NCBI GenBank assembly: GCA_013297765.1
Contig: JAAFID010000017.1
Coordinates: forward strand, 1-35,638
Length of the DNA stretch: 35,638 bases
Direction: 5' to 3'
From: Cytophagales bacterium
GTDB lineage: Bacteria; Bacteroidota; Bacteroidia; Cytophagales; Cytophagaceae
Shown here: in pieces, positions 1 through 21,184 of the stretch
How positions within the stretch are numbered: position 1 is the first letter of the stretch
Layout: each line of letters starts with the position of its first letter
Notes under the pieces: model-generated
Seen by the model: the letters and a program-made list of their open reading frames with translations, nothing else
Told to the model about the DNA's origin: nothing
Databases searched by the model: none
Program-made: the position numbers and the translations under genes

Positions 1-3000
1 TGTTTGTTACTGCCAAGCTCACATTGTAGGTGGCTTCTATACCGTATATGTGTTTCACGTTTTGAATTTTTAAGGTATCGGTACCATCGCCAAAGTTCCA
101 AGCCCATTTAACAGCATTTTTTGAAAGGTCGGCAAAGGTTATTTCTTTATTGATCACCAACTCAGCCTCGTCGGTAGTAAAGTCGGCAACCGGGCTTTCT
201 CTTAATGTTACTGCCTTTGTAGATGAATCTTTACAACCGAGGTTTGATTCTACAATTAAAGTCACTTGATAGGTTTGATCTCTTTCAAATATATGCACTG
301 GGTTTGGCATGGCCGAGCTAGAGTTGTCTCCAAAATTCCAAATACGGCTTTTAACATTTCCCACCAAAACTTTGGTAGTATCTAAGAAAGCTACCTTTTG
401 TTTGGCACAAGGGTTACTAAATACAAAGCCTGGTGCTATTGGATTTTTAACAATTACCTTCAACGTATCAGATACCACTTGACATGCTTCCTTGTCATTA
501 GAAATGGCAACCAGCAATACCTCTCCATTTAGGCTATCAGCTCGACCTATCACATAGTCTATGTTGGTAGTGGTATCTGTAGGAATAAATGTTCCAGACC
601 CCAAAGTTTTCCAGCGTATGCCTGATAAATTGGTAATTGTAGGCTTAAGATTGACCGTTGTTGCACCTTTGCAAAGTGCCCTGTCGTTGCCTACTTCTAG
701 TTTAGGGAAGTTTTTGAAAGAGATCTTAATGGTATCTTTTCCTGGCAAACATATACCGTCGTTGGTAGAGGATAGTATTAATCTTACAAAGCCTCTTGCT
801 GAGTCTGTAGGAGTGAAGGCATATACACCATTCAATGTGGTATCAGATGGTAGAAATATTCCATTCCCTTCGAGCCTGCTCCACTTGCCTTTTTCTGTAG
901 TGCCAGCAACAATTCCAGCCAACTGCAACCCATCAGTAGCGGTACATGTAAAGAAGTCTTTGCCTGCATCTACAAAGTTTTTACCGCCAAAGCTGATAGA
1001 AAGAGAATCGGAAACACTACAAACAGATTGGCTGCTGTTCAACACTAACGTTACTTTCCCATTTGCAGAATCAGCTTTGCTAAAGAAATATTCGGCATTA
1101 GTAGTTGTTGCAGTAGGGAAAAAGAATCCAGTTCCTTTTGATTGCCACAAGACAGAAGCGGTATTTGATGTACCATTCAGCACTATTGATTTGGCTCCAA
1201 TACAGATATTCTTGTCTTTGCCGGCATCTAAAGTTGGGTTAGGTTCTAGTGCTATCGTTACGGTATCTCTGCCCGCTTGACAATTGCCATTGTTGGTAGA
1301 TACGAGCATGATTTTTACTTGCCCTGCCGCAGAATCTGATTTGCTCAATACATAAGTAGTGGCGAGTTCTGCATTATTGGGGGTGAATGTGCCAGTACCT
1401 AGCGTAATCCAGTTTCCAGTAGTAGATCCACCTGCAATTAACCCTTTTAATGCTACAGATTTTTGTGATTCACAAACCTTCTTGTCTATCCCAGCATCTG
1501 CAAATGTTGTTGTTCCTAATTTTATAATTACCTCGTCCGATTCCACATTGCAATTGCCATTTTCAGTAGTGACTAAGGTTAATTTTACGCTACCTAAAAT
1601 AGAGTCTGTTTTGCTGAAATTGTACGTAGCAGTGAGGTTGGTGTCGCTCGGGAAGAATGTACCTGTTCCTTGAGTACTCCATTTACCTTTGCCCGACCCA
1701 CCAATAATGGAGGCATCTAGCAAAGTATTACTACTGCTGGAACATACATTTTGGTCTTTCCCAGCATTGATTATTGGTCGTGGCGAAATATCCAGTTTTA
1801 CGGTATCGGTTACTGCATTGCAATTGCCATTGCCTGTAGAGGTGGCAAACAAGTATGTAACTTGGTTTTTCTTGTCTAAAACGCCAGGTTGGTAAGTGTT
1901 GTTTGTGGCGGTGTTTCCTGCTGCAAAACTACCATCGCCAGAAGTACTCCAGGTAATACCTGTAGCCCCATCTATTACTACTGCTAAATCTATGGTTGCA
2001 TTGTTTTCACATACTTTTTTGTCGCTACCCGCATTCACTTTTGGTGCTGCACTAAAGGTAGCTCTCAATTCATCTTTTACTAGGTCGCAGCTATTGCCAG
2101 TTAAGGTAAGCAACACAAAGCCCGCTTTAAGATCTAATCCTGATGGGGTATAAGTAGTTTTTAAATCTGCCTTACTTGGCAAGAATACGCCTGTACCTGT
2201 ACTAGACCATACACCTGCATCTGCACCTCCGCCTACAATACCTGATAATTTTACTTCTGCATTGTTGTTACAAACTACTTGATCTTCTCCAGCATTGGCA
2301 GTACCCGAGGTCGTTATTCTTATTTTCATGGTGTCTCTCACCGCAAGGCAACTGCCATTGCCAGTAGAGGTAAGTACTATGGTCACCCCATTACTTGCCG
2401 AATCTGCTTTACTGGCTTTGTATTGGGCATTCAAATCATTGGCATTTGGTAAAAATATTCCAGAGCCAGAGGTTGTCCATGTACCTGTGGTGGCACCACC
2501 AAATACGTTTCCTTCTAATGGAATATTAAGATTATTCAAACAAACTATTTTATCAAACCCTGCATCTACAGAAGGGGCGGGGCTAATGGTTACATTTATA
2601 GCATCTGTTGCCGAATTACAACTATTTGCAGTAAGAGTTAGGGTTACATTGCCTTGTGCAGTATCGGCCTTGCTAGGGATATAGGTGGCAAGAAGTGTTT
2701 TGTTATTGGGAATGAAAGTACCATTGCCCGATGAAGACCAAACGCCTGCTGTAGCACCACCCGATACTTGACCAGAAAGAGTTACCGCCGATTTATTCGC
2801 ACAAACAGTTTGGTCTAGGCCAGCATTTACATTGCCCGCTGGCAATATAAATACTTCCATCGTATCTACTACCTGAGTGCAGTTTCCATTGTTGGTAGAG
2901 GTCAAAAATAGTTTTGCACCTTTATTCAAAGAGTCTGCAGCACTCGGCTTGTAGGTAGCTGTTAATAAATTAGGATTGGGAAGAAATATCCCCGTACCAG

Positions 3001-6000
3001 AGGTAGACCATTTGCCCGTGTTTGTTTTACCTGATACAAACCCCGTCAAATCTACTGTTAAGTTATTTACACACACCGTTTGATCTGTTCCAGCATTGAC
3101 GAATGGTGCAGGGGTAAATTCTAAATCTACTTTACTTATTACTGCCTTACAATTTAAGTTACCAGTGGAAGTCAAGGTTAATGTAACCAACCCAGAAGCT
3201 ACTTCTGCAGCGGTAGGGGTGTAAGTGGCATTTAGAGTAGTATTGTTGAGTGCAAAACTACCTGCACCACCAGACCATATTCCGCCAGTAGCTACATTCA
3301 CAGACCCATTCAATATGGCCGATGGATTATTGGCACAAAGGCTTTGTTTTGATCCAGCACTAACTGTAGGGGCATTGGTAAAGGTAACGGTCACATTGTC
3401 GCTTACTGGGCTACAGTTTCCATTGCCAGTAGAAGTTAGCGTAAGCGAAAGCGTGCCTGCATTTATCTCAGATTGTGTGGGAGAATATATATTACTAAGC
3501 GAGGTTGCACCTTGCTTGAATAAGCCTAAGCCGCCTGACCATAGACCACCACTAGCAAGCGAAACATTTCCATTCAATACAACATCTGCATTGTTACTAC
3601 AAACAGCCACATCTGTTCCAGCATTCACAGTGGGAGATGGGTTGATGGTAATAGTTACTAAATCAGCAACTGGGTTGCAGCTACCATTGCCAGTAGAAGA
3701 AAGTGTAAGGGTTACTGTTCCTGCAATTATTTCTGCCGCACTAGGTATGTAGCTTGCATTTAGCAAAGATGCTGAAGGATTAAATACACCTGTTCCACCA
3801 CTCCATACCCCACCTGTAGCATTGGTTACAGAACCATTGAGGGCAACGGCTGGGTTGTTGGCACATGATACAATATTTGCACCCGCATTTGTGATTGGCG
3901 ACGGGGTGATAGCGATGTCGATATCATCAAATACTGAGTTGCAATTTCCATTTCCAGTCGTTGTAAGGATTAATTTTACAGAACCACTCGCTATCTCTGA
4001 TGCAGTTGGACTATAATTTGTAATCAAAGAGTTATTATCTGGAACAAACGTACCCAACCCGCCAGACCAAGTACCTCCAGTTGCAACGCTCACCGCACCA
4101 CTAAGTGTAATACTTGAATTGTTGGCACATACGGTTTTATTCACACCTGCATTTGCTATTGGTGCTGGTGTAAATGAAATAGTCACTTGATCTGTTACGG
4201 TATTACAAGTACCATTGCCTACCGATGATAATGTTAAGGTAACACTTCCAGCAGCTATTTCATTGGCTGTAGGAGTATAAGACGTTGTAAGGCTGCTGTT
4301 CCCAGGATTAAACAATCCTAACCCACCTGACCAGCTACCCCCAGTTGCTAGGGTAATTGCTCCATTTAAGTTTACCGATGGGTTATTTGCACATACCGAT
4401 ACATCTGTACCAGCATTTACAGTAGGTGCAGGGTTAATCGTTATTTTTACCTGATCACTTACAGCAATACAATTTCCATTGCCAGTAGAGGTAAGGGTTA
4501 ATATAACACTACCAGTAGCAATTTCAGAAGTTGAAGGTATATAGGAAGAAATTAGTGAAGCACTACTTGGGTTGAATATTCCCAAACCCCCTGACCATGA
4601 TGCACCAGTTGCATTTTGAACTGTACCTGATAAATTTACACTTGGGTTATTAACGCAAGAACTAAGGTCAGCACCTGCTGTAACTATAGGCGATGGGGTA
4701 ATGGTAATCACCATTTCGTCTGATACAGCTTTACAATTATTGTTTCCCGTAGTAGTTAATGTTAATGTTACCTTGCCAGCAGCAATTTCAGATGGAGAAG
4801 GTTGGTAGGTGGCGGCCAATACTGCATTGTTGGGAGTAAATATACCCCCTCCACCCGACCAACTACCACCAGCAGCAACTACTACACTGCCATTGAGTGT
4901 TACATTGCTATTATTAGCACAAACCGTTTTGTCAAAGCCTGCATTGGCTTCGGTGGGTGCTGTAAAGTTAATTTGCACTTGGTCTGATTCAGAGTTACAC
5001 ACCCCGTTGCCAGTTGAAGTAAGCGTAAGGGTAATACTACCAGAGGCTATTTCTGCATTGGTAGGGGCATAGGTTGCCGAAAGTGTATTGTTGTTTGGGC
5101 TGAATGTTCCTAATCCACCTGACCATTGACCACCTGTAGCTATTGATACGTTGCCATTTAAAGTAATCACGGAATTGTTCGCACATAAGGTTTGATTAAT
5201 ACCTGCATTGACCACAGGTGCTGGATTGATTACTATTTTTACTTGGTCGCTAGTTGCAATACAGTTACCATTACTAGTAGAAGTAAGGGTTAGTGTCACG
5301 CTACCCGCAGTGATTTCTGCTGCTGAAGGAGTATAGCTAGAGGTGAGTACATTGCTAGCAGGGTTGTATGTTCCAGTTCCTCCTGACCACTGCCCACCAC
5401 CAGCATTTTGTACCAAGCCGTTCAAGGAAACACCTGCCTTGTTGGCACACGAAACCAAATCTGCACCAGCATTTACAATAGGCGAGGGAGTAATGGTTAC
5501 TTCCATTTCGTCTGTAACAGGGTTACAGTTATTATTGCCAGATGTGGTAAGTACTAGTTTAAATTTGCCCGAAGTTATTTCAGCGGGAGTAGGCGAGTAG
5601 GTAGTGCTAAGTGAAGTTGCATTAGGGGTAAATAAGCCACCGCCTGCCGAACTCCATACACCGCCAGTAGCTATGGTAACACCTCCATTTAGGGTTACAT
5701 TGGCATTGTTGGCACATACTGTTTGGTCGGCTCCTGCATTGGCTTCTGGGCTGGCGGTAAAGGTAAACTTTACGTTGTCTGAAACAGGATTACATTGCCC
5801 ATTGCCTGTAGAGGTTAGTGTTAATGTAATACTTCCAGATAGTATTTCAGCAGTAGTAGGGTTGTAAACTGCTGTCAAAGAATTGTTGTTGGGAGTAAAT
5901 GTTCCCAAGCCTCCTGACCATTGACCACCACTAGCTATGGTAACACTTCCAGCAAGTGATATGGCAGGTTTGTTTGAACAATAGGTTGCATCATTTCCAG

Positions 6001-8926
6001 CATTTACAACTGGAGCAGGGTTGTAAATTATTTTTACTACGTCTGAAGATGGGTTACATTTACCATTACCTATAGAGGTGAGGGTAAGGTTTAATGTTCC
6101 TGCAGCAATTTCTGCGGCTGTAGGTGTGTACGTTGCACCCAATACCGATGTGCTGGGGCTGAATATACCAGCACCACCAGACCATTGACCACCACCAGCA
6201 TTTTGCACAAAACCTGACAAGGTTACTGTGGGGTTATTAACACATGAAGATAAATCTGTACCTGCACTTACCACTGGTGCAAGGGTAATGGTTGTAGCTA
6301 TAGCATCCGATACTGCTAAACAATTCCCATTGCCAGTAGAGGTAAATGTCAATGTTACATTTCCTGCAGATATTTCAGATGGAGAAGGAGAATATATAGC
6401 ATTGGCTGTAGTATTGTTTGGGTTAAATGTTCCCGAGCCACCACTCCAAACGCCACCAGTAGCGATACTAATTACTTGTCCATTCAAGGTAATGTCTGCT
6501 TTGTTGGCACAAACTGTTTGATCTATACCTGCACTCACATCAGGCGATGCAGTGTAGGAAATAACAATAGATTGTGCTACCGCTAAACAATTTCCATTGC
6601 CCGTAGAAGTAAGTGTTAAATTGCTACTTCCAGAAAGTACCTCAGCAGTACTAGGGGTGTACACTGTATTTAAGCTCGTGTTCGAAGGGCTAAATGTTCC
6701 CAAACCTCCTGACCATATTCCTCCAGTAGAGGGAAGCGATACACTGCCAGCCAAAGTAGCTTTGGCATTATTGGCACATAATATTTGATTACCTCCTGCA
6801 TTTACTACTGGTGGTTGGGTAAATGTAATTTTTATTTGATCATTTACTGCATTGCATTGCCCATTACCAGTAGTGGTCAATGTAAGGTTTAGTGTACCTG
6901 ATGCTATTTCTGCAGCGGTGGGTGTGTAGGTTGCATTCATTACAGTAGCACTGGGGTTGTATGTGCCCGCCCCCCCTGACCACTGCCCCCCTGTAGCTAC
7001 GGTAAATGTACCATTCAACGCAACTATTGCATTATTAGCACATTTTGTTTGGTCTGCACCTGCATTTACAGTGGGTGTAGGTGTTATGTTGATAATCATA
7101 CTATCTTTTACAGGTATGCAATTTCCATTGCCAGTAGAGGTGATGATTAATTTTACTTTTCCTGCTGCAACTTCTGTAGCACTTGGGGTGTAGCTGGTTG
7201 CAAGCGAAGTATTATCAGGGTTAAATATTCCTGTTCCTCCAGTCCACTGACCACCTGCAGAAATAGTAACTGTTGCGGCAAGGTTAGTTAATGATTTATT
7301 AGCACAAACTGTTTGGTCTACCCCAGCATCCATGGTTGGGGCAGCAGTAAAGTTTACTTTCATCTTATCTGTTACTGGAAAACAAATACCAGTAGAGGTT
7401 AGAGTGAAATCCAAACTTCCTAATGCCAAATCAGAAATGCTGGGGGTGTATGTAGCTGTTAGTGCAGTTGCATTGGGCGAGAAAGTACCTGAGCCATTGG
7501 TTGTCCATTCACCAGTAGTAGTACCCCCTGAAACGGTGCCTACCAGTTTCACTACATTATTTTTACATACAAACTGGTCTGCACCTGCATTGATGTTTAT
7601 GGCAGCTTTAAATTCAGAAAAATAGCCATAGCGGCATGTTGTAGTAGAGCCACCATTGATTAGACCCATTGCAAATATTTCACCAGTATTTTTAATCATG
7701 TTGGCAGTGCCAACGGGAATATCTGTTGTATTGAAAGCCACTACAGCACCGACCCATTGTCCACCTGTACCTGGAACCACACTAAAGCTCGCTGGATTTA
7801 TTAATGTAGTGCTTCCATTGAGTACAAACTTGTCTTGATTGCCAGCTTTTACCAATAAATTTAAGCCAAAATATTCAGAGGTACCTCTTACAAAACTAAC
7901 TTGCGAGGAGCCTGCACAATTTAGCGGTGGCAGTATTGCAGACCCTAATTCACACCCAAAACCAGAGTAGTGAACAGTATATACTGGTTTACTAGCCTTG
8001 ATGTAAGTAAATTTTTTGCTTATAGGTACACGATATGTTTCGCTACCAAACAAGGTGGTTTCGTAAACCCCATCAATAGTGATTACAGTATTGTTTTGAG
8101 TAGCCACTATAAATGCGGCTTCATTATTTACTGAGCCTTGTATTACTATGTATTCTTTCCCAATAATGTCTGTAGGTACTATTTGGTCACCACATAAATC
8201 CCTACAAACACCTTCGGCATCTGAATCAGTTTTAACAGTAATTGCTATAGGCTTATCGGAGACTACAATGCTGCCGCTTGGGTTATTTGCTCCCAATTGA
8301 GTAGGATTTGCCCCAGACCATGTTTGCCCTTTATTAAGAATGATGCTGAATTTCTGTTGAGCCACATGGCCTACTAGTGCAGTTTTAGGATATATGAATA
8401 TTGTGGTATTGTCTTCCGTGGCTACAATATCGAAGGAAGAATAAGGAGTTGGTGTATAATTACCATTATTCCAGTAGGTTTGAAATGGAGTGTAGAATTC
8501 AGTACCCAATGCACTTTCTCCTTTTAATGCAAATATTTCTCCGTTCAATGGCTGGGTTGGGGCAGTAGGAACATCTACATCATAATAAACTGATATTAAT
8601 CTATTGGAGGTAATGAACAATCCATTATTTAATATTGTATTTGCTGGCTTCGTTTCAATTAAATTAATGCTAGATGTGAGGTCTACAGAAGTTGCCGAAT
8701 TAGGTGCTAGATTTACTGTAATAGGGGTAAATGCACCATTTGCAGGCATAGAAATAGTAACAGTTGCAGCAGTATCGAGCGATGATATACGCAAAGCAAC
8801 GGGTCTGTCTCTGTGACCAGCACTAGCTTCTGGTGCAACAAACCAGAATTGTTTCCCTGTTTGCCCTACCACACTCCCGATAGAAACCCAAAATAAAATG
8901 ATGCTTAGTAGTCTAAGTTTTCGCAT
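1..8926 (-). CDS. Giant secreted repeat protein: IgGFc-binding-like N-terminus, ~27 Ig-like repeats, PKD domains (C-terminus outside window)
   Basis: One frame stays open from ATG 8926 to the window edge (about 2975 codons). I followed the frame at the start, in many repeats and at the end, and it does not shift. Residues 1-21 form a signal peptide (MRKLRLL, hydrophobic core, cleavage near VVG-QT). Residues ~25-430 resemble the IgGFc-binding N-terminal domain found in large Bacteroidota surface proteins (FWFVAPEAS near the start, later IVATEDNTTI and ATQNNTVITIDG). Residues ~440-2830 are ~88-residue repeats, and ~2840-2975 are two PKD-like domains (WNFGDNSS, WNFGDGTD). The role is probably adhesion or gliding at the cell surface. 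Export by T9SS is inferred, because a C-terminal sorting domain would lie beyond position 1. No exact promoter is seen upstream; TATAATTTG (9066-9058) is a near match with one extra spacer base. Confidence 0.93.
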   Translation of the reverse strand, partial: MRKLRLLSIILFWVSIGSVVGQTGKQFWFVAPEASAGHRDRPVALRISSLDTAATVTISMPANGAFTPITVNLAPNSATSVDLTSSINLIETKPANTILNNGLFITSNRLISVYYDVDVPTAPTQPLNGEIFALKGESALGTEFYTPFQTYWNNGNYTPTPYSSFDIVATEDNTTIFIYPKTALVGHVAQQKFSIILNKGQTWSGANPTQLGANNPSGSIVVSDKPIAITVKTDSDAEGVCRDLCGDQIVPTDIIGKEYIVIQGSVNNEAAFIVATQNNTVITIDGVYETTLFGSETYRVPISKKFTYIKASKPVYTVHYSGFGCELGSAILPPLNCAGSSQVSFVRGTSEYFGLNLLVKAGNQDKFVLNGSTTLINPASFSVVPGTGGQWVGAVVAFNTTDIPVGTANMIKNTGEIFAMGLINGGSTTTCRYGYFSEFKAAININAGADQFVCKNNVVKLVGTVSGGTTTGEWTTNGSGTFSPNATALTATYTPSISDLALGSLDFTLTSTGICFPVTDKMKVNFTAAPTMDAGVDQTVCANKSLTNLAATVTISAGGQWTGGTGIFNPDNTSLATSYTPSATEVAAGKVKLIITSTGNGNCIPVKDSMIINITPTPTVNAGADQTKCANNAIVALNGTFTVATGGQWSGGAGTYNPSATVMNATYTPTAAEIASGTLNLTLTTTGNGQCNAVNDQIKITFTQPPVVNAGGNQILCANNAKATLAGSVSLPSTGGIWSGGLGTFSPSNTSLNTVYTPSTAEVLSGSSNLTLTSTGNGNCLAVAQSIVISYTASPDVSAGIDQTVCANKADITLNGQVISIATGGVWSGGSGTFNPNNTTANAIYSPSPSEISAGNVTLTFTSTGNGNCLAVSDAIATTITLAPVVSAGTDLSSCVNNPTVTLSGFVQNAGGGQWSGGAGIFSPSTSVLGATYTPTAAEIAAGTLNLTLTSIGNGKCNPSSDVVKIIYNPAPVVNAGNDATYCSNKPAISLAGSVTIASGGQWSGGLGTFTPNNNSLTAVYNPTTAEILSGSITLTLTSTGNGQCNPVSDNVKFTFTASPEANAGADQTVCANNANVTLNGGVTIATGGVWSSAGGGLFTPNATSLSTTYSPTPAEITSGKFKLVLTTSGNNNCNPVTDEMEVTITPSPIVNAGADLVSCANKAGVSLNGLVQNAGGGQWSGGTGTYNPASNVLTSSYTPSAAEITAGSVTLTLTSTSNGNCIATSDQVKIVINPAPVVNAGINQTLCANNSVITLNGNVSIATGGQWSGGLGTFSPNNNTLSATYAPTNAEIASGSITLTLTSTGNGVCNSESDQVQINFTAPTEANAGFDKTVCANNSNVTLNGSVVVAAGGSWSGGGGIFTPNNAVLAATYQPSPSEIAAGKVTLTLTTTGNNNCKAVSDEMVITITPSPIVTAGADLSSCVNNPSVNLSGTVQNATGASWSGGLGIFNPSSASLISSYIPSTSEIATGSVILTLTSTGNGNCIAVSDQVKITINPAPTVNAGTDVSVCANNPSVNLNGAITLATGGSWSGGLGLFNPGNSSLTTSYTPTANEIAAGSVTLTLSSVGNGTCNTVTDQVTISFTPAPIANAGVNKTVCANNSSITLSGAVSVATGGTWSGGLGTFVPDNNSLITNYSPTASEIASGSVKLILTTTGNGNCNSVFDDIDIAITPSPITNAGANIVSCANNPAVALNGSVTNATGGVWSGGTGVFNPSASLLNASYIPSAAEIIAGTVTLTLSSTGNGSCNPVADLVTITINPSPTVNAGTDVAVCSNNADVVLNGNVSLASGGLWSGGLGLFKQGATSLSNIYSPTQSEINAGTLSLTLTSTGNGNCSPVSDNVTVTFTNAPTVSAGSKQSLCANNPSAILNGSVNVATGGIWSGGAGSFALNNTTLNATYTPTAAEVASGLVTLTLTSTGNLNCKAVISKVDLEFTPAPFVNAGTDQTVCVNNLTVDLTGFVSGKTNTGKWSTSGTGIFLPNPNLLTATYKPSAADSLNKGAKLFLTSTNNGNCTQVVDTMEVFILPAGNVNAGLDQTVCANKSAVTLSGQVSGGATAGVWSSSGNGTFIPNNKTLLATYIPSKADTAQGNVTLTLTANSCNSATDAINVTISPAPSVDAGFDKIVCLNNLNIPLEGNVFGGATTGTWTTSGSGIFLPNANDLNAQYKASKADSASNGVTIVLTSTGNGSCLAVRDTMKIRITTSGTANAGEDQVVCNNNAEVKLSGIVGGGADAGVWSSTGTGVFLPSKADLKTTYTPSGLDLKAGFVLLTLTGNSCDLVKDELRATFSAAPKVNAGSDKKVCENNATIDLAVVIDGATGITWSTSGDGSFAAGNTATNNTYQPGVLDKKNQVTYLFATSTGNGNCNAVTDTVKLDISPRPIINAGKDQNVCSSSSNTLLDASIIGGSGKGKWSTQGTGTFFPSDTNLTATYNFSKTDSILGSVKLTLVTTENGNCNVESDEVIIKLGTTTFADAGIDKKVCESQKSVALKGLIAGGSTTGNWITLGTGTFTPNNAELATTYVLSKSDSAAGQVKIMLVSTNNGNCQAGRDTVTIALEPNPTLDAGKDKNICIGAKSIVLNGTSNTASVLWQSKGTGFFFPTATTTNAEYFFSKADSANGKVTLVLNSSQSVCSVSDSLSISFGGKNFVDAGKDFFTCTATDGLQLAGIVAGTTEKGKWSRLEGNGIFLPSDTTLNGVYAFTPTDSARGFVRLILSSTNDGICLPGKDTIKISFKNFPKLEVGNDRALCKGATTVNLKPTITNLSGIRWKTLGSGTFIPTDTTTNIDYVIGRADSLNGEVLLVAISNDKEACQVVSDTLKVIVKNPIAPGFVFSNPCAKQKVAFLDTTKVLVGNVKSRIWNFGDNSSSAMPNPVHIFERDQTYQVTLIVESNLGCKDSSTKAVTLRESPVADFTTDEAELVINKEITFADLSKNAVKWAWNFGDGTDTLKIQNVKHIYGIEATYNVSLAVTN
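430..7605 (-). repeat. About 27 tandem ~264-bp (88-aa) Ig-like repeats inside the giant surface gene
   Basis: The unit recurs every 260-274 bases. Its conserved landmarks are NAGxDQTVCANN at the start, GGxWSGGxGTFxP in the middle, YTPTxAEIxxG, then LTLTSTGNGxC and a closing DxxxITxxPxP. Approximate plus-strand positions of the first-cysteine motif are 7565, 7301, 7040, 6776, 6507, 6241, 5973, 5713, 5444, 5180, 4918, 4653, 4390, 4125, 3861, 3598, 3336, 3071, 2803, 2540, 2272, 2010, 1743, 1477, 1203, 943 and 670. Nearly every unit has two cysteines at fixed places, which suggests one disulphide per beta-sandwich domain. Units in the middle are most alike; those near either end are more diverged and shift from WSGG to WTT/WSS-type sequences. 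Confidence 0.93.
3336..6525 (-). repeat. Higher-order three-unit repeat (~792 bp) nested in the 88-aa repeat array
   Basis: Every third unit carries a variant start. GTDLSSC (6241), GADLVSC (5444), GADLSSC (4653) and GANIVSC (3861) are spaced 797, 791 and 792 bases apart, and three of them continue with VQNA before the WSGG motif. The unit before each variant tends to end in ITPSPI (5713, 4918 and 4125, but not 6507). The unit after it also recurs: GTDVSVC at 4390 and GTDVAVC at 3598. The pattern is not visible outside this stretch. The simplest explanation is amplification of a three-domain block, followed by divergence. Confidence 0.75.
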
Positions 8927-11113: not shown

Positions 11114-13042
11114 GTGGAAATCAACTACAAGCCTAATTTTTTACATTCATTGATTTCATTAGGTATGATGCTAATGGTATTGACATGCAGCCCTATATTT
11201 GCTCAATCCAATATATTAAAAAATCTTCAATTTCGTGCCGATGATTTCTTTAATGCAGAGCTATATACCCATGCACTACATACATATAAAGAGCTAGATA
11301 GTTTAAACCCAAATGATGCATCAATCAATTATAAATTAGGTATCTGCTACTTGCAAATATCCTCAAAAAAGAAAGCACTAGATGTATTGCTCAAGGCACA
11401 GCAACTCGGCTTTCAGTCCGATGGTTTGGCGTTTAACTTGGGCAAAGCTTATCATTTCAATAATCAATTTTTAGAAGCTATCGCACAATTTGAGAAAGCA
11501 AAAATGTTAATATTAGATTCCCTAACAACGGGCAAATGGCGTCATGAGCAAATAAAAAGATTAATTCAAAATTGCAAAAATGCTATTGCATTGCAGCAAC
11601 ACTCACAGCAAGTTAAAATCACAAATTTGGGAGCATCCATCAACAGTAAATATCCAGATTACGCACCATTGCTGGTAGCCAATGAGACAGAACTTATTTT
11701 TACCTCGTCCCGAGTTGGTAGCATAGGCAATAAAAAAGATTCCAAAACAGGCTACTTTTTTGAAGATGTATGGGCATCTTCAAAAAATGAAAAAAAGGAA
11801 TGGATGCCTGCAAAAAATATGGGAAAACCCATCAATACCGAAGGCCACGACGCTACAGCCACAATATCTTTAGATGGCCAAACATTGATTATTTATAGAA
11901 ACGAAAATCTATATGTAAGTTATTTAAAAGGCAAAGTATGGAGTGAGCCCCAATTACTACCCAAAACCATCAATACAGATGCATGGGAAAGTAGTGCTAG
12001 CATTAGTGCAGATGGTAAAACACTATATTTTTCGAGCAATAAAAAAGGGGGATTTGGAGGGAAAGACATATATCAATCTCATAAAAATGCCAAAGGTCAT
12101 TGGGAAACAGCTATCAACCTAGGAAGTGCTGTAAATACTGTATCTGACGAAGAATCTCCATTTATACATCCTAATCAAACAACTTTGTATTTTAGTTCCG
12201 ACCGGGAAGAAAGCATAGGTGGTTTCGACATATTTTTCACCACAACAGATTCGTTGCACAATTGGACAAAGCCAGTAAATATTGGTTTACCAATCAACTC
12301 ACCCGAAGATGAACTCGATTTTGTGTGGTCGGCCGATGGTAAGCGTGCTTATTTTTCTTCCATACGAGAAGGTGGGCTAGGAGCAGAGGATATTTATATG
12401 CTAGAAAGAGATGCCCTAGAAGCTCGATTGATACTGCTTACAGGAAAAATTTTAGACAAACACTCGATGCAATCTATTTCTGCTTTAGTAACCATTACCG
12501 ATTTGCAAAATCCTGCAAATACCACTACCGTAGCTGCTAATGAAGCCAGTGGAATCTACACCATAATTGTGCCCCCTAGGAAAAATTATGCTGTCAATAT
12601 AACTGCAACTAATTATTTGCCCTATTCAGCACATTTATATGTATCTGATACTACTAAATATTTGGAGCAGCAACAGGATTTTTTGCTACAAGCTATAGCT
12701 GTAGGTAATACTACTGCTTTGCGTAATGTGTTTTTTGACCATAATAAGTCAGCCTTGCGTAGTGAATCTAAAATTGAACTGAACGAAATAGTACAATTTT
12801 TACAAAAAAATAAAAACCTTGAAATCAAAATTGTTGGTCATACAGATAACGTGGGAAGCGATGATTATAACTTGCAATTGTCGCAAGCACGTGCAGATGC
12901 CGTAAAAACGTTTCTTGTAGGTAATGGAATTGATGCCAAACGCCTTGTATCAATAGGCAAAGGGAAAACAGAACCCATAGCTACAAACGACACTGAATTT
13001 AACCGCCAACAAAATAGAAGAATCGAAATAGAGGTTAAATGA
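11114..13042 (+). CDS. TPR / beta-propeller / CRD / OmpA-C envelope protein, PorE-like architecture
   Basis: The order of parts is: a signal peptide (residues ~1-31, ending SPIFAQS); TPR helices (~35-130); a WD40-like PD40 propeller (~180-430) with the recurring blades YFSSNKKGGFGGKDIY, YFSSDREESIGGFDIF and YFSSIREGGLGAEDIY; a carboxypeptidase-regulatory-like beta domain (~440-530); and an OmpA C-terminal peptidoglycan-binding domain (538-642). In the last domain D578 of GHTDNVG and R593 of QARADAV match the usual diaminopimelate-binding residues. This order is that of PorE, which links T9SS to peptidoglycan in Porphyromonas, but Bacteroidota carry many paralogues with similar layouts, so identity is not settled. 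The start is GTG at 11114: an in-frame stop lies just upstream, and later ATGs would cut into the signal peptide. Confidence 0.88.
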   Translation: MEINYKPNFLHSLISLGMMLMVLTCSPIFAQSNILKNLQFRADDFFNAELYTHALHTYKELDSLNPNDASINYKLGICYLQISSKKKALDVLLKAQQLGFQSDGLAFNLGKAYHFNNQFLEAIAQFEKAKMLILDSLTTGKWRHEQIKRLIQNCKNAIALQQHSQQVKITNLGASINSKYPDYAPLLVANETELIFTSSRVGSIGNKKDSKTGYFFEDVWASSKNEKKEWMPAKNMGKPINTEGHDATATISLDGQTLIIYRNENLYVSYLKGKVWSEPQLLPKTINTDAWESSASISADGKTLYFSSNKKGGFGGKDIYQSHKNAKGHWETAINLGSAVNTVSDEESPFIHPNQTTLYFSSDREESIGGFDIFFTTTDSLHNWTKPVNIGLPINSPEDELDFVWSADGKRAYFSSIREGGLGAEDIYMLERDALEARLILLTGKILDKHSMQSISALVTITDLQNPANTTTVAANEASGIYTIIVPPRKNYAVNITATNYLPYSAHLYVSDTTKYLEQQQDFLLQAIAVGNTTALRNVFFDHNKSALRSESKIELNEIVQFLQKNKNLEIKIVGHTDNVGSDDYNLQLSQARADAVKTFLVGNGIDAKRLVSIGKGKTEPIATNDTEFNRQQNRRIEIEVK

Positions 13043-16902: not shown

Positions 16903-17592
16903 CTAGTTGGCTTCAGTATCAAATTTATAGCCTATTCCTTTTATAGTTTTGATGTTTTCTTCTCCTATTTTTTCACGCACTTTTCTTATGTGTACGTCTA
17001 CAGTGCGTGGCACTACATATACATCTGTTCCCCAAATATTTTTCAATAAATCATCTCTATTAAATACAATATTGGGATGCTGAGATAGAAAATACAGCAA
17101 TTCAAATTCCTTTTTTGGCAGCACTACTTTGATGCCATTTTTGTGTACTGTATAGCTGCCTCGATCTATAATTAAATCCGTAATATGAATAATGTCAGGG
17201 GCAACGATGGCAGAGTTTTCTCTTTTAAAAAATGCTGAAATCCTACTCATCAATGCTCTCGGTTTTATAGGCTTTGTGATATAATCATTAGCTCCTACTT
17301 CAAATGCCGCTACTTCTGAATATTCCTCAGATCGTGCAGTAAGAAAAATGACAAATACCTCTTTCAGTTTTGGCAATTCTTTTATTTTTCGACATGCCTC
17401 AATGCCATCCATTTTTGGCATCATGATATCCATTAAAATTAAATGAGGGGTAAAATCTTTAGCTATTTCTAGTGCTTTTTGCCCATTTAATGCCGTTTTT
17501 ACCTCGTATCCCTCTTTTATTAGATTATATTCAAGTAGCTCTAAAATGTCTTGTTCATCATCGACTACTAAAATTCGGTGCAGTTTGCTCAT
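16903..17592 (-). CDS. OmpR/PhoB-family response regulator
   Basis: This is a two-domain transcription factor of 229 residues. The receiver has the acidic pair D11-D12, phospho-acceptor D55 in LILMDIMMPKMDG, T85 in FLTARS and K107 in ITKPIKP. The C-terminal winged-helix domain shows LPKKEFELLYFL, RTVDVHIRKVREKIG and IKTIKGIGYKF, the classic OmpR/PhoB DNA-binding region. It is the first gene of a probable operon with the kinase and the pseudouridine synthase. It is most similar in layout to PhoB, but regulated genes cannot be inferred from the window. Confidence 0.93.
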   Translation of the reverse strand: MSKLHRILVVDDEQDILELLEYNLIKEGYEVKTALNGQKALEIAKDFTPHLILMDIMMPKMDGIEACRKIKELPKLKEVFVIFLTARSEEYSEVAAFEVGANDYITKPIKPRALMSRISAFFKRENSAIVAPDIIHITDLIIDRGSYTVHKNGIKVVLPKKEFELLYFLSQHPNIVFNRDDLLKNIWGTDVYVVPRTVDVHIRKVREKIGEENIKTIKGIGYKFDTEAN

Positions 17593-17659
17593 AAAAATTT
17601 TTGTTTAATATATTTTTAGAAATAAAATTTGATTTTTAAAATATATCAAACTCCATTTC

Positions 17660-19015
17660 TTATTTGTTAAATAGCTCTACCAACTTGGCTTCTAGCTCTT
17701 GACCTCGCAAATTGGTAGCAATTATTTTCCCATCTTTACCTATTAAAAATGTAGCAGGAATTCCTTTTACACTGTAAATTTGAGCTCCTGCAGACTGCCA
17801 ACCTTTTAGGTCTGATACATGATTTGGCCATTTTAATTGGTCTTTTTGAATTGCTTGCAACCATTTTTCTTTTTCTTGATCTAGCGATACGCTGAATACT
17901 GTAAATCCTTTGTCTTTGAACTGGTCATACACCCGCACTACATTTGGGTTTTCTTTTCTACAAGGCCCACACCATGATGCCCAAAAATCTAGCAATACTA
18001 CTTTTCCCTTCAACGATGATAGTTTTATTGGTTTACCGCTGGCATCGTTGAGGGCAATCTCTGGTGCCATATCGCCCGCCTGAGGTGCTCCTTTAGGCAA
18101 TGATTTAAATACTTTTTTTGCAAATTTTGAATTTGGATATTCTGATTTGTACACCTGCCCAAGTGTGCGGGCATAGTCGGCATCATAAGGAGCAAAAATA
18201 CGGATGAGTGTACTGTAAAATACTTCTTTATTTTTAGTACCTGTAGTAGGTTTTACCAGCATATTGCTAGATTCCTGCACCACATCGATACCTTGTGTCT
18301 GCATAAACTTTTGCATGTAGAGGATAATTTTATTGCTCAAAAAATCTCCTCTGGTCATTTCTTCATCTGTAAGGTCGGCTACGGTAAAAAAGTCTTCTTT
18401 GCTAGTATTGTCGGGGGTAGCAAATACAGTAGCAAGTTTGGTCGCAAATAATGAAGTATTGGTCTTGATTATTTCTGCATAAAAGCTGCTACGAACCTTA
18501 TTGAGCGAGTCCATTTTAATTTGCAATTTTCCAATCTCTTTATTAAACTTATCAGGATCACTTTGGCGGTATGCTAGTATAGGCTGTGCAGCTTGGTCAA
18601 GGCTATTTACTTGAGCGGTGTAAGCCGAGTTGTAAAGCAGTATTGATTGGTACACTTTGTTCTCTGTAGAATTAGTTACCGAAGGCAATTCATTTGGCTT
18701 GTTGACATCTGCTACTAAATCTATGTCTTCGTCGGCTATAATTATGTTGAAATTTGAGGTTTCGCTCAAGCCAATTTTATACATGCCACGAGGCAAATCT
18801 ATTGGCTTAAATTTAAAGTTAGTGTTGGTTATTTTGGTGGAATCTAATTTTGATACTTCCATACCTAATACCTGATACAGGTAAATAGTAGCGGTACTAG
18901 GGGTGTTTTTTAATACTCCTTTGATGACTATACTTTTTGATATGCTACGATGCATAGTAATTGCCGATAGTGCAATTACAAAACAAAATAAAAAGTATTT
19001 ATTGTATAACTTCAT
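17660..19015 (-). CDS. TlpA-like thioredoxin-fold protein with DUF4369-like N-terminus
   Basis: A 451-residue protein with a signal peptide (about 1-26). The N-terminal part (~30-130) resembles the beta-rich DUF4369 domain, a helical linker spans ~140-300, and a TlpA/AhpC-TSA thioredoxin fold covers ~315-451. The redox motif is WCGPC (C349, C352) in LLDFWASWCGPCRKENP, with the cis-proline at P420 in KGIPATFLIG. Such proteins are common in Bacteroidota and reduce or exchange disulphides in the periplasm. The next upstream gene on this strand, the DUF3108 gene, starts 200 or more bases away, so this gene may have its own promoter, though no exact consensus is seen in the gap. Confidence 0.9.
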   Translation of the reverse strand: MKLYNKYFLFCFVIALSAITMHRSISKSIVIKGVLKNTPSTATIYLYQVLGMEVSKLDSTKITNTNFKFKPIDLPRGMYKIGLSETSNFNIIIADEDIDLVADVNKPNELPSVTNSTENKVYQSILLYNSAYTAQVNSLDQAAQPILAYRQSDPDKFNKEIGKLQIKMDSLNKVRSSFYAEIIKTNTSLFATKLATVFATPDNTSKEDFFTVADLTDEEMTRGDFLSNKIILYMQKFMQTQGIDVVQESSNMLVKPTTGTKNKEVFYSTLIRIFAPYDADYARTLGQVYKSEYPNSKFAKKVFKSLPKGAPQAGDMAPEIALNDASGKPIKLSSLKGKVVLLDFWASWCGPCRKENPNVVRVYDQFKDKGFTVFSVSLDQEKEKWLQAIQKDQLKWPNHVSDLKGWQSAGAQIYSVKGIPATFLIGKDGKIIATNLRGQELEAKLVELFNK

Positions 19016-20131: not shown

Positions 20132-21184
20132 TCAAATGGAAGGATATTTTTCTTTAAGATATTTTAAATATGCTGTAAAATTAGAATGAAATTTGGTTTT
20201 AAATTCTACTTCAAAATAATTTTGTTTTTCTCTATATCTTTTTTCGTCCATGTAAAAGGTATTATTTATTTTTTCAAAATCTTTTTCAAGTTGGGGATAG
20301 TACATTTGATTTTGCTTGTACAATACTAACAGTTCTTGAATTGCTTGGTGAAAAAAAATCTTTTTGAGCATTGATTTTTCTTTGCTAGAAGTTGATTGTT
20401 TGAATGAGTGATATAGTTGATTTAATCTAATGGATTGCCCCAATACCAATTCAGAATATTGCTTATAAAAAGCCTTTCGTTTTTGATATTTTATCAACTC
20501 TGTAGATGCCTTGCCAAATTTTGCTGCAAGAAATAATTCTGCACCATAATCGCCCACAAAACTAGCTAGATTTTCATTGAAATCTACATTGTCTTTGATG
20601 TACAATGTGCCGTGTGTAAGCTCGTGAATGATGAGGTTTGCCAAGCTGCCTGGGTATCGCTTAAGCATGCTCGATAAAATAGGATCCTGAAACCAGCCCA
20701 AAGTAGACCAGCCTGACACCTCGTCTAATGAGGTGTCTAGCCCTTGCTTTTTTAATAAATTTTCTTCGGCTTTTGCTTTTTCTATTTCAAAAAAACCTTT
20801 GTAAGAAACAGTTCCTAAAAATGGAAATTTCCATTCCTTTGCTTTTAATTTATATGGCTCGCAGGCGGTTACTACCCACAGTATGGGCTTGTTTTTCTGG
20901 TCGTATAGTGTGGTGTAATTTTTAGAAAAATTGATACCTAATGAATCGAAAGCAAATTGTCGAATTTCTTCAACCAATCGAATTTTTGTTTTCAAACTAT
21001 CGGGAAAATTGGGGTCTTGCAATACTTCTGATACTGGTCTAGTATTGTACACTATTTTTAGTTGCCCTATGCCTTGAGATATGCCATAACTAATGATTTC
21101 AAAATACCAAACCACCAATGTTGCAGCCAATAGTAGTAAACCGAGTAAAATTTGCTTGATTTTTGAAATGGATTTAAAATTCAT
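20132..21184 (-). CDS. Predicted membrane-anchored zinc aminopeptidase (PF10023-like)
   Basis: A 350-residue protein with one N-terminal transmembrane segment (about 10-30), so the body should be periplasmic. The zinc-binding motif HELTH is at 187-191 and E204 in FNENLASFVGDYG is a likely third ligand. Around it, GWSTLGWFQDPILSSM and LIIHELTHGTLYIK match the family known as predicted aminopeptidase. Function is inferred from the motif; the substrate is unknown. It is divergent from the haem-binding gene over 144 bases. Confidence 0.82.
   Translation of the reverse strand: MNFKSISKIKQILLGLLLLAATLVVWYFEIISYGISQGIGQLKIVYNTRPVSEVLQDPNFPDSLKTKIRLVEEIRQFAFDSLGINFSKNYTTLYDQKNKPILWVVTACEPYKLKAKEWKFPFLGTVSYKGFFEIEKAKAEENLLKKQGLDTSLDEVSGWSTLGWFQDPILSSMLKRYPGSLANLIIHELTHGTLYIKDNVDFNENLASFVGDYGAELFLAAKFGKASTELIKYQKRKAFYKQYSELVLGQSIRLNQLYHSFKQSTSSKEKSMLKKIFFHQAIQELLVLYKQNQMYYPQLEKDFEKINNTFYMDEKRYREKQNYFEVEFKTKFHSNFTAYLKYLKEKYPSI

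Follow-up and report, generated by a model that had tools for sequence, protein, structure and literature searches.

The window analysed here (35,638 nucleotides) is an entire contig, C79, of a Cytophagales genome (G000; 3.56 Mb, 290 contigs, 99.34% complete), and it carries at one end a single stop-free frame of 2,975 codons (positions 2–8926, minus strand) that reaches past the contig end. We read this frame as the first 2,975 of about 3,091 codons of a gene for a predicted giant T9SS type B surface protein. From its N-terminus onward, and on the minus strand throughout, it encodes a putative signal peptide picked out by eye in the translation (residues 1–21; 8864–8926), an IgGFc_binding-type head (residues 22–444; 7595–8863; assigned from PF17517, an AF2 model, and head alignments), a stalk of two-cysteine Ig-like repeats, 27 in tandem and each some 88 residues long (residues 445–2830; 437–7594; assigned from a regular expression, a repeat HMM, and AF2), and PKD domains (residues 2831–2975; 2–436; PF18911 and PF00801), the Pfam matches of which fall at residues 2856–2905 and 2910–2975. 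A preliminary description of the window had listed the same elements, namely a signal peptide, an IgGFc-like N-terminal domain, about 27 two-cysteine repeats, and PKD domains within one incomplete open frame, and had expected a T9SS type B sorting domain beyond the window, all of which agrees with what we found. Extended past position 1, the frame indeed meets no early stop: the remaining 116 residues lie on the end of another contig of the same genome (C29), which has five bases in common with the window at the join and carries on the reading frame up to a C-terminal CHU_C domain (PF13585, 2e-12, over its cut-off). The TIGR04131 model also matches this C-terminus (3.9e-8, 33.3 bits), albeit under its cut-off of 35.

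Of the 98 genomes searched, two belong to the genus: our own and G001 (MAG Cytophagales bacterium PH2015_01D_33_11), which encodes a complete orthologue of 3,098 amino acids on a single contig (REBA01000010.1), with head, repeats, PKD, and CHU_C (7.8e-11, over cut-off; TIGR04131 at 1.5e-5 and 25.1 bits, under it), and the last 116 residues of this orthologue are 78% identical to the end of C29. Since a separate assembly thus holds the orthologue unbroken, its 27 repeats co-linear with those of the window, we reject the idea that the frame arose by chance or as an artefact. Directly downstream of the giant gene on C29 comes a PorP/SprF gene (PF11751, 4.3e-35), the counterpart of which in G001 starts 8 bases past the stop of the orthologue (PF11751, 4.1e-33; TIGR03519, 3.1e-44), the two products being 79% identical; cognate shuttles of this kind are described as required for secretion (PMC12618676). 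At the scale of the genome, 31 CHU_C matches were found, 29 of them over cut-off, together with a SprA_N match (3.2e-146) that marks the T9SS translocon as present. The order engB, lpxB, giant gene is common to the window and G001, with an OmpA-type gene placed divergently ahead of them. Thioredoxin-like (ResA/TlpA-like) and response regulator genes (window 16903–19015; L078:17315–19424) come after SprF in G001 and, in the window, lie 8 kb away on the opposite side of the giant gene, so that the gene order has been rearranged.

The assignment of the head rests on a PF17517 match over residues 138–391 (E 6.6e-31 to 1.1e-32; 108.1 bits against a gathering score of 25.6). Its AF2 model is of high confidence (pLDDT 93.0, pTM 0.92), the mature head is 84% identical between the window and G001 with 8 gap columns, and 39 columns are invariant across an alignment of 54 heads. 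Foldseek returned only low-TM matches in the PDB for this model, none convincing overall. A second structure comparison placed Thermotoga TM1070 first (1nc7; Z 10.2, rmsd 3.8, 104 aligned residues, 12% identity), over residues 1–117 of the head model, the remaining rows shown having Z of at most 7.0; with a model of more than 400 residues, such a search may miss single-domain matches. The TM1070 superfamily is described as predicted to be sugar-binding (PMC2739507), and we treat this modelled likeness as a lead toward a putative sugar-binding subdomain rather than as a finding. A profile of the head matched none of the PDB sequences, the 5,898-residue GhpA included. IgGFc is here a family name only and conveys no evidence for IgG binding. 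An open-access literature search for IgGFc heads in Bacteroidota gave none, the titles found being concerned with host tissue, gut, or mucus; the kind of protein is already known, and the IgGFc-headed, repeat-stalked family itself seems undescribed in the literature searched.

In the stalk, the regular expression and the repeat HMM both count 27 repeats, spaced by 86–91 residues, the first starting at residue 445 and the last ending at residue 2830, and the two cysteine columns are invariant in 54/54 repeats of the window protein and the G001 orthologue. Pfam and NCBIfam offered no credible family for the repeat. A FAD_binding_6 match (21.3 bits, cut-off 21.1) covers 42 residues of one repeat with no stretch passing alone and was set aside as noise, as were weaker matches to DUF6791, PARP, Gp18, Sul7s, FlgD_ig, and DUF3244. 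Between the two species, 2,386 stalk residues align without any gap, with 73% identity in repeats 1–17 and 67% in repeats 18–27 (61% in the PKD part and 83% in CHU_C), and each of the 27 repeats is closest to the repeat at the same position in G001 (mean 71% vs. 43% elsewhere). Because repeat number and order are kept between species, the reach of such surface poles lends itself to study as a trait that is inherited.

The array also appears to have an internal period of three. Within repeats 2–17 of the window protein, repeats at lag 3 share 59.6% identity, compared with 53.6 ± 1.2 after shuffling (reached in 0/5,000 shuffles), and those at lag 6 share 57.3% (p 0.006), the lags 1, 2, 4, 5, 7, and 8 not being above shuffles in this segment. 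Across whole arrays of at least eight repeats, complete or cut, lag 3 was the highest of lags 1–7 in 20 out of 24, a set in which the window protein and its orthologue both figure; L116, L118, L130, and L142 have no lag-3 maximum. Near neighbours are generally more alike, as lags 1 and 2 beat shuffles in many whole arrays, that of the window included. When the phase of this period was compared between proteins (leaving out the orthologue and each first repeat, and using up to 14 repeats per protein), 72 of 253 pairs shared a phase at z >2, 53 of them also agreeing in phase when counting starts at the head, and the other 181 never reached z 2, the period and phase counts alike being inflated by kinship among the proteins.

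In two comparisons, three repeats have been gained or lost as one block: L130 (18 repeats) and L144 (21) differ by a single block, repeats 5–7, and this block recurs between L112 (19) and L135 (22), along with one unmatched last repeat in each; no clean block of difference emerged for L112 against L121 and L115. Among nine pairs of complete arrays whose heads are at least 75% identical, eight have equal counts and the ninth is off by three. The counts found among 24 complete arrays (4, 5, 10, 12, 18, 19, 21, 22, 25, 27, and 31), judged by themselves, lend weak support to stepping by three. L151 and L171 have 31 repeats each, yet the best match is at the same place for only 13 of the 31. In another genome, nine repeat matches of equal score follow one another at exactly 258 bases (G227:C1:3796741-3799053), and because of this exact spacing and these identical scores the array is perhaps nearly uniform and young.

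One scan of genome contigs yielded 449 relatives of the head, of which we kept the best 80, that is, the closest ones, which are not independent of each other. Among these 80, the repeat is present in 36, with 2 to at least 38 copies per frame, many arrays being cut by the locus end; the head of Taishania pollutisoli CZZ-1 carries 5 repeats, its gene standing in line with SprF and a PorE-like gene, and the array of Cryomorpha ignava QSSC 1-22, one of those so cut, has at least 38. Two or three IgGFc head genes per locus were seen in 18 of the 80 named loci (e.g., L140, L145, L150, L157, L168, and L175). In a draw of 395 genomes across the phylum, our own included, with at most 13 candidates scored per genome and the repeat alone counted, with or without a head, the repeat was detected at 1e-5 in at least 20. 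As for the 17 genomes of the same family, 11 encode one stalk-less head (frames of 704–774 amino acids) and 6 none; these heads are 36–45% identical to that of the window and end in CHU_C in the two cases tested (2/2), and they differ from it by having neither the 88-residue repeats nor SprF directly downstream.

The stalk and the SprF gene tend to go together. Taking the 53 complete head genes from named loci for which 900 or more downstream bases are available, drawn from the best 80 of the 449, a SprF gene follows on the same strand within 2.5 kb in 16/20 repeat-bearing genes vs. 0/33 repeat-less ones (Fisher p 3e-10), and after clustering the heads at 65% identity (25 clusters) in 7/9 vs. 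0/15, with one mixed cluster (p 1e-4). Three of the exceptions (L150, L155, and L168) have a second head gene next, then SprF and a PorE-like gene; the fourth, L135, has no SprF within 2.5 kb, a second head coming next and the locus ending about 1.3 kb beyond. Three further loci with short downstream sequence (L151, L165, and L171) stand outside the 20, and the start of a SprF gene is seen at their edge. The 11 same-family stalk-less loci are not among the 53 genes, and since in four of them (L079, L081, L085, and L088) the opposite strand carries SprF-like and PorE-like genes no more than 5 kb away, the split between stalked and stalk-less heads is not a clean one. Eight of these 11 loci (L079, L081, and L083–L088) have a PorE-like gene some 5 kb or less from the stalk-less head, four of the eight being without a SprF-like gene.

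From the domain order, the sorting domain, the SprF neighbour, and the cysteines missing from the C-tail of this neighbour, all read from the DNA and its translation, we consider it probable that the giant protein is a surface-anchored, long-reaching type B T9SS adhesin that does not take part in gliding. Exported via Sec, it would be directed by its CHU_C domain across the outer membrane through SprA/Sov, and the PorP/SprF-family barrel encoded immediately downstream would then retain it on the surface. An Ig-like domain measures about 4 nm as a rule of thumb, so that some 27 such beads, together with the PKD domains, would set the N-terminal head perhaps 100 nm off the cell. The head is presumed to be the candidate binding part. 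The preliminary description had likewise proposed a long stalk with an N-terminal binding head: the domain order it implied is seen, and surface display and binding by the head are what we infer from it. If so, the giant protein would exemplify widespread, little-studied bacterial surface poles.

The same two-gene plan is that of SprB/SprF in Flavobacterium johnsoniae, where a giant repeat protein with a type B sorting domain is likewise encoded directly upstream of a PorP/SprF gene. This plan, along with GldJ-like matches in our genome (best 8e-41), would also suit a mobile, SprB-like gliding adhesin that its SprF partner moves along a GldJ/GldK track, an alternative that we regard as unlikely. 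In F. johnsoniae, a Cys-X-Cys motif is described as tying SprF to GldK, the motif being needed for gliding and not for the display of SprB, and some adhesins are described as still moving with one tail cysteine left (PMC12635249). However, the only cysteine in the SprF partner of the window lies 72 residues before its end, and the G001 partner has none, which argues that the giant protein is probably no gliding adhesin. Unlike SprB, it combines its Ig-like repeats with an IgGFc head. A Cys-X-Cys in the last 60 residues was found in 0/16 partners of the family and in 0/18 PorP/SprF genes of our genome. A single cysteine is present in the last 40 residues of 4/16 family partners (L123, L132, L139, and L170) and 7/18 PorP/SprF genes of our genome, and as one cysteine allows some movement, it is for the window's own partner alone that we take the non-gliding reading as firm. 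These single cysteines slightly lower our confidence in the overall reading. The GldJ-like matches, for their part, come in pieces, the best reaching 140 bits of the 458 needed, and seven loci of the family have a porE-like neighbour, contrary to what is described for sprB/sprF of F. johnsoniae (PMC9143113).

The non-gliding adhesin that we favour may be clamped to peptidoglycan via a PorE-like protein. PMC9143113 describes a complex of PorE, PorP, and PG1035 in Porphyromonas gingivalis and proposes PorP-PorE as the clamp of those type B proteins that do not move. As stalked heads have SprF as a neighbour and stalk-less ones lack it, comparing the two would allow this proposal to be tested. 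The likeness to our locus lies in a type B substrate, a PorP-like barrel, and a TPR/propeller/OmpA protein nearby. PG1035, however, runs at about 50 kDa according to the same source and thus lacks a long stalk, and the corresponding gene of the window (11114–13042, plus strand), for a TPR/PD40/OmpA protein that is PorE-like or CHU_0125-like, is divergent from the giant gene and outside its operon, with engB and lpxB in between. Its product scores over the cut-offs for PD40 (PF07676) and OmpA (PF00691) and under those for TPR and CarboxypepD_reg; it obtains 319 bits with T9SS_PorE (NF052230, cut-off 600) and 322 bits with CHU_0125 (NF053607, cut-off 620), and the OmpA-type gene of G001 obtains 265 and 285 bits, respectively. 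Because CHU_0125 thus slightly outscores PorE in both genomes, the OmpA-type protein of the window is no more than a possible wall clamp. In four other loci (L123, L132, L139, and L170) a PorE-like gene comes right after SprF, and in L123 and L155 the PorE model (cut-off 600) gives the matched stretch 315 and 311 bits, against 268 and 270 from its OmpA-type rival (cut-off 620).

Binding could also take place through the stalk rather than the head, in the manner of a cell–cell or matrix adhesin, and it is true that our genome puts the same stalk under other N-termini, on C135 (23 repeats) and C243 (at least 6). We nonetheless hold this to be very improbable, as the head is more conserved between species than the stalk (84% vs. 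67–73% identity) and keeps its 39 invariant columns over 54 heads. The C135 frame is a second giant one of 3,393 codons (G000:C135:6165-16343; L097:2166-12344) with an N-terminus without PF17517; it carries CHU_C and adjoins a PorP/SprF gene, so that another head reuses the stalk there. The C243 frame (L096:3-3005), also with another N-terminus without PF17517, is cut by the contig end.

As for the fold of the stalk, repeats 9–11 gave an AF2 model of high confidence (mean pLDDT 97.3, pTM 0.81) with Ig-like matches, and the repeat is thus confidently modelled as an Ig-like domain with GhpA as its best match. Foldseek ranked the base of GhpA first in the PDB (9fly, 6.3e-12), with cadherins almost level (1.8e-11), and VIA-align 2 again placed it first (Z 13.2, rmsd 8.4, 235 aligned residues, 26% identity), ahead of another GhpA fragment (Z 10.3), NCAM2 (Z 10.2), and lower matches in which further GhpA pieces are mixed with unrelated Ig proteins. 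A profile of 61 repeat triples matched GhpA with an overall E of 1.7e-27 (2.2e-10 for the best stretch), and one built from the 27 single repeats of the window gave no PDB match with E of 1 or below. GhpA, the grappling hook of Aureispira sp. CCB-QB1 (PDB 9flp-9fly, 9g8b), is a chain of Ig-like domains related to the stalk by profile and fold, and in ixotrophy this hook has a T6SS alongside. That the giant protein is itself a prey-capture device of this kind, kin to GhpA, nevertheless strikes us as scarcely credible, since the single-repeat profile and the near-equal cadherins weaken the match, the likeness is confined to the shaft domain, no IgGFc head being detected in the GhpA sequence, and no VipB match was found in our 99.34% complete genome, E. 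coli serving as the one control, which was positive. GhpA differs further in being described as heptameric, with 5,898 residues (PMC13319060).

Extending the anchored, non-gliding adhesin reading to the phylum, we can only tentatively, and with some doubt, envision Bacteroidota-wide, wall-clamped poles of fixed reach, with an IgGFc-type head, a grappling-hook-related Ig stalk whose length would be passed on over long times and change by entire three-domain units, and a dedicated non-gliding SprF-PorE anchor. If this were true, stalks would be built up from such three-domain units, the number of which would be under selection. Besides the genes discussed above, the window encodes at 20132–21184 (minus strand) a protein of 350 amino acids in which a HELTH motif was noticed by eye, perhaps a metallopeptidase, with no NCBIfam match at 1e-5.
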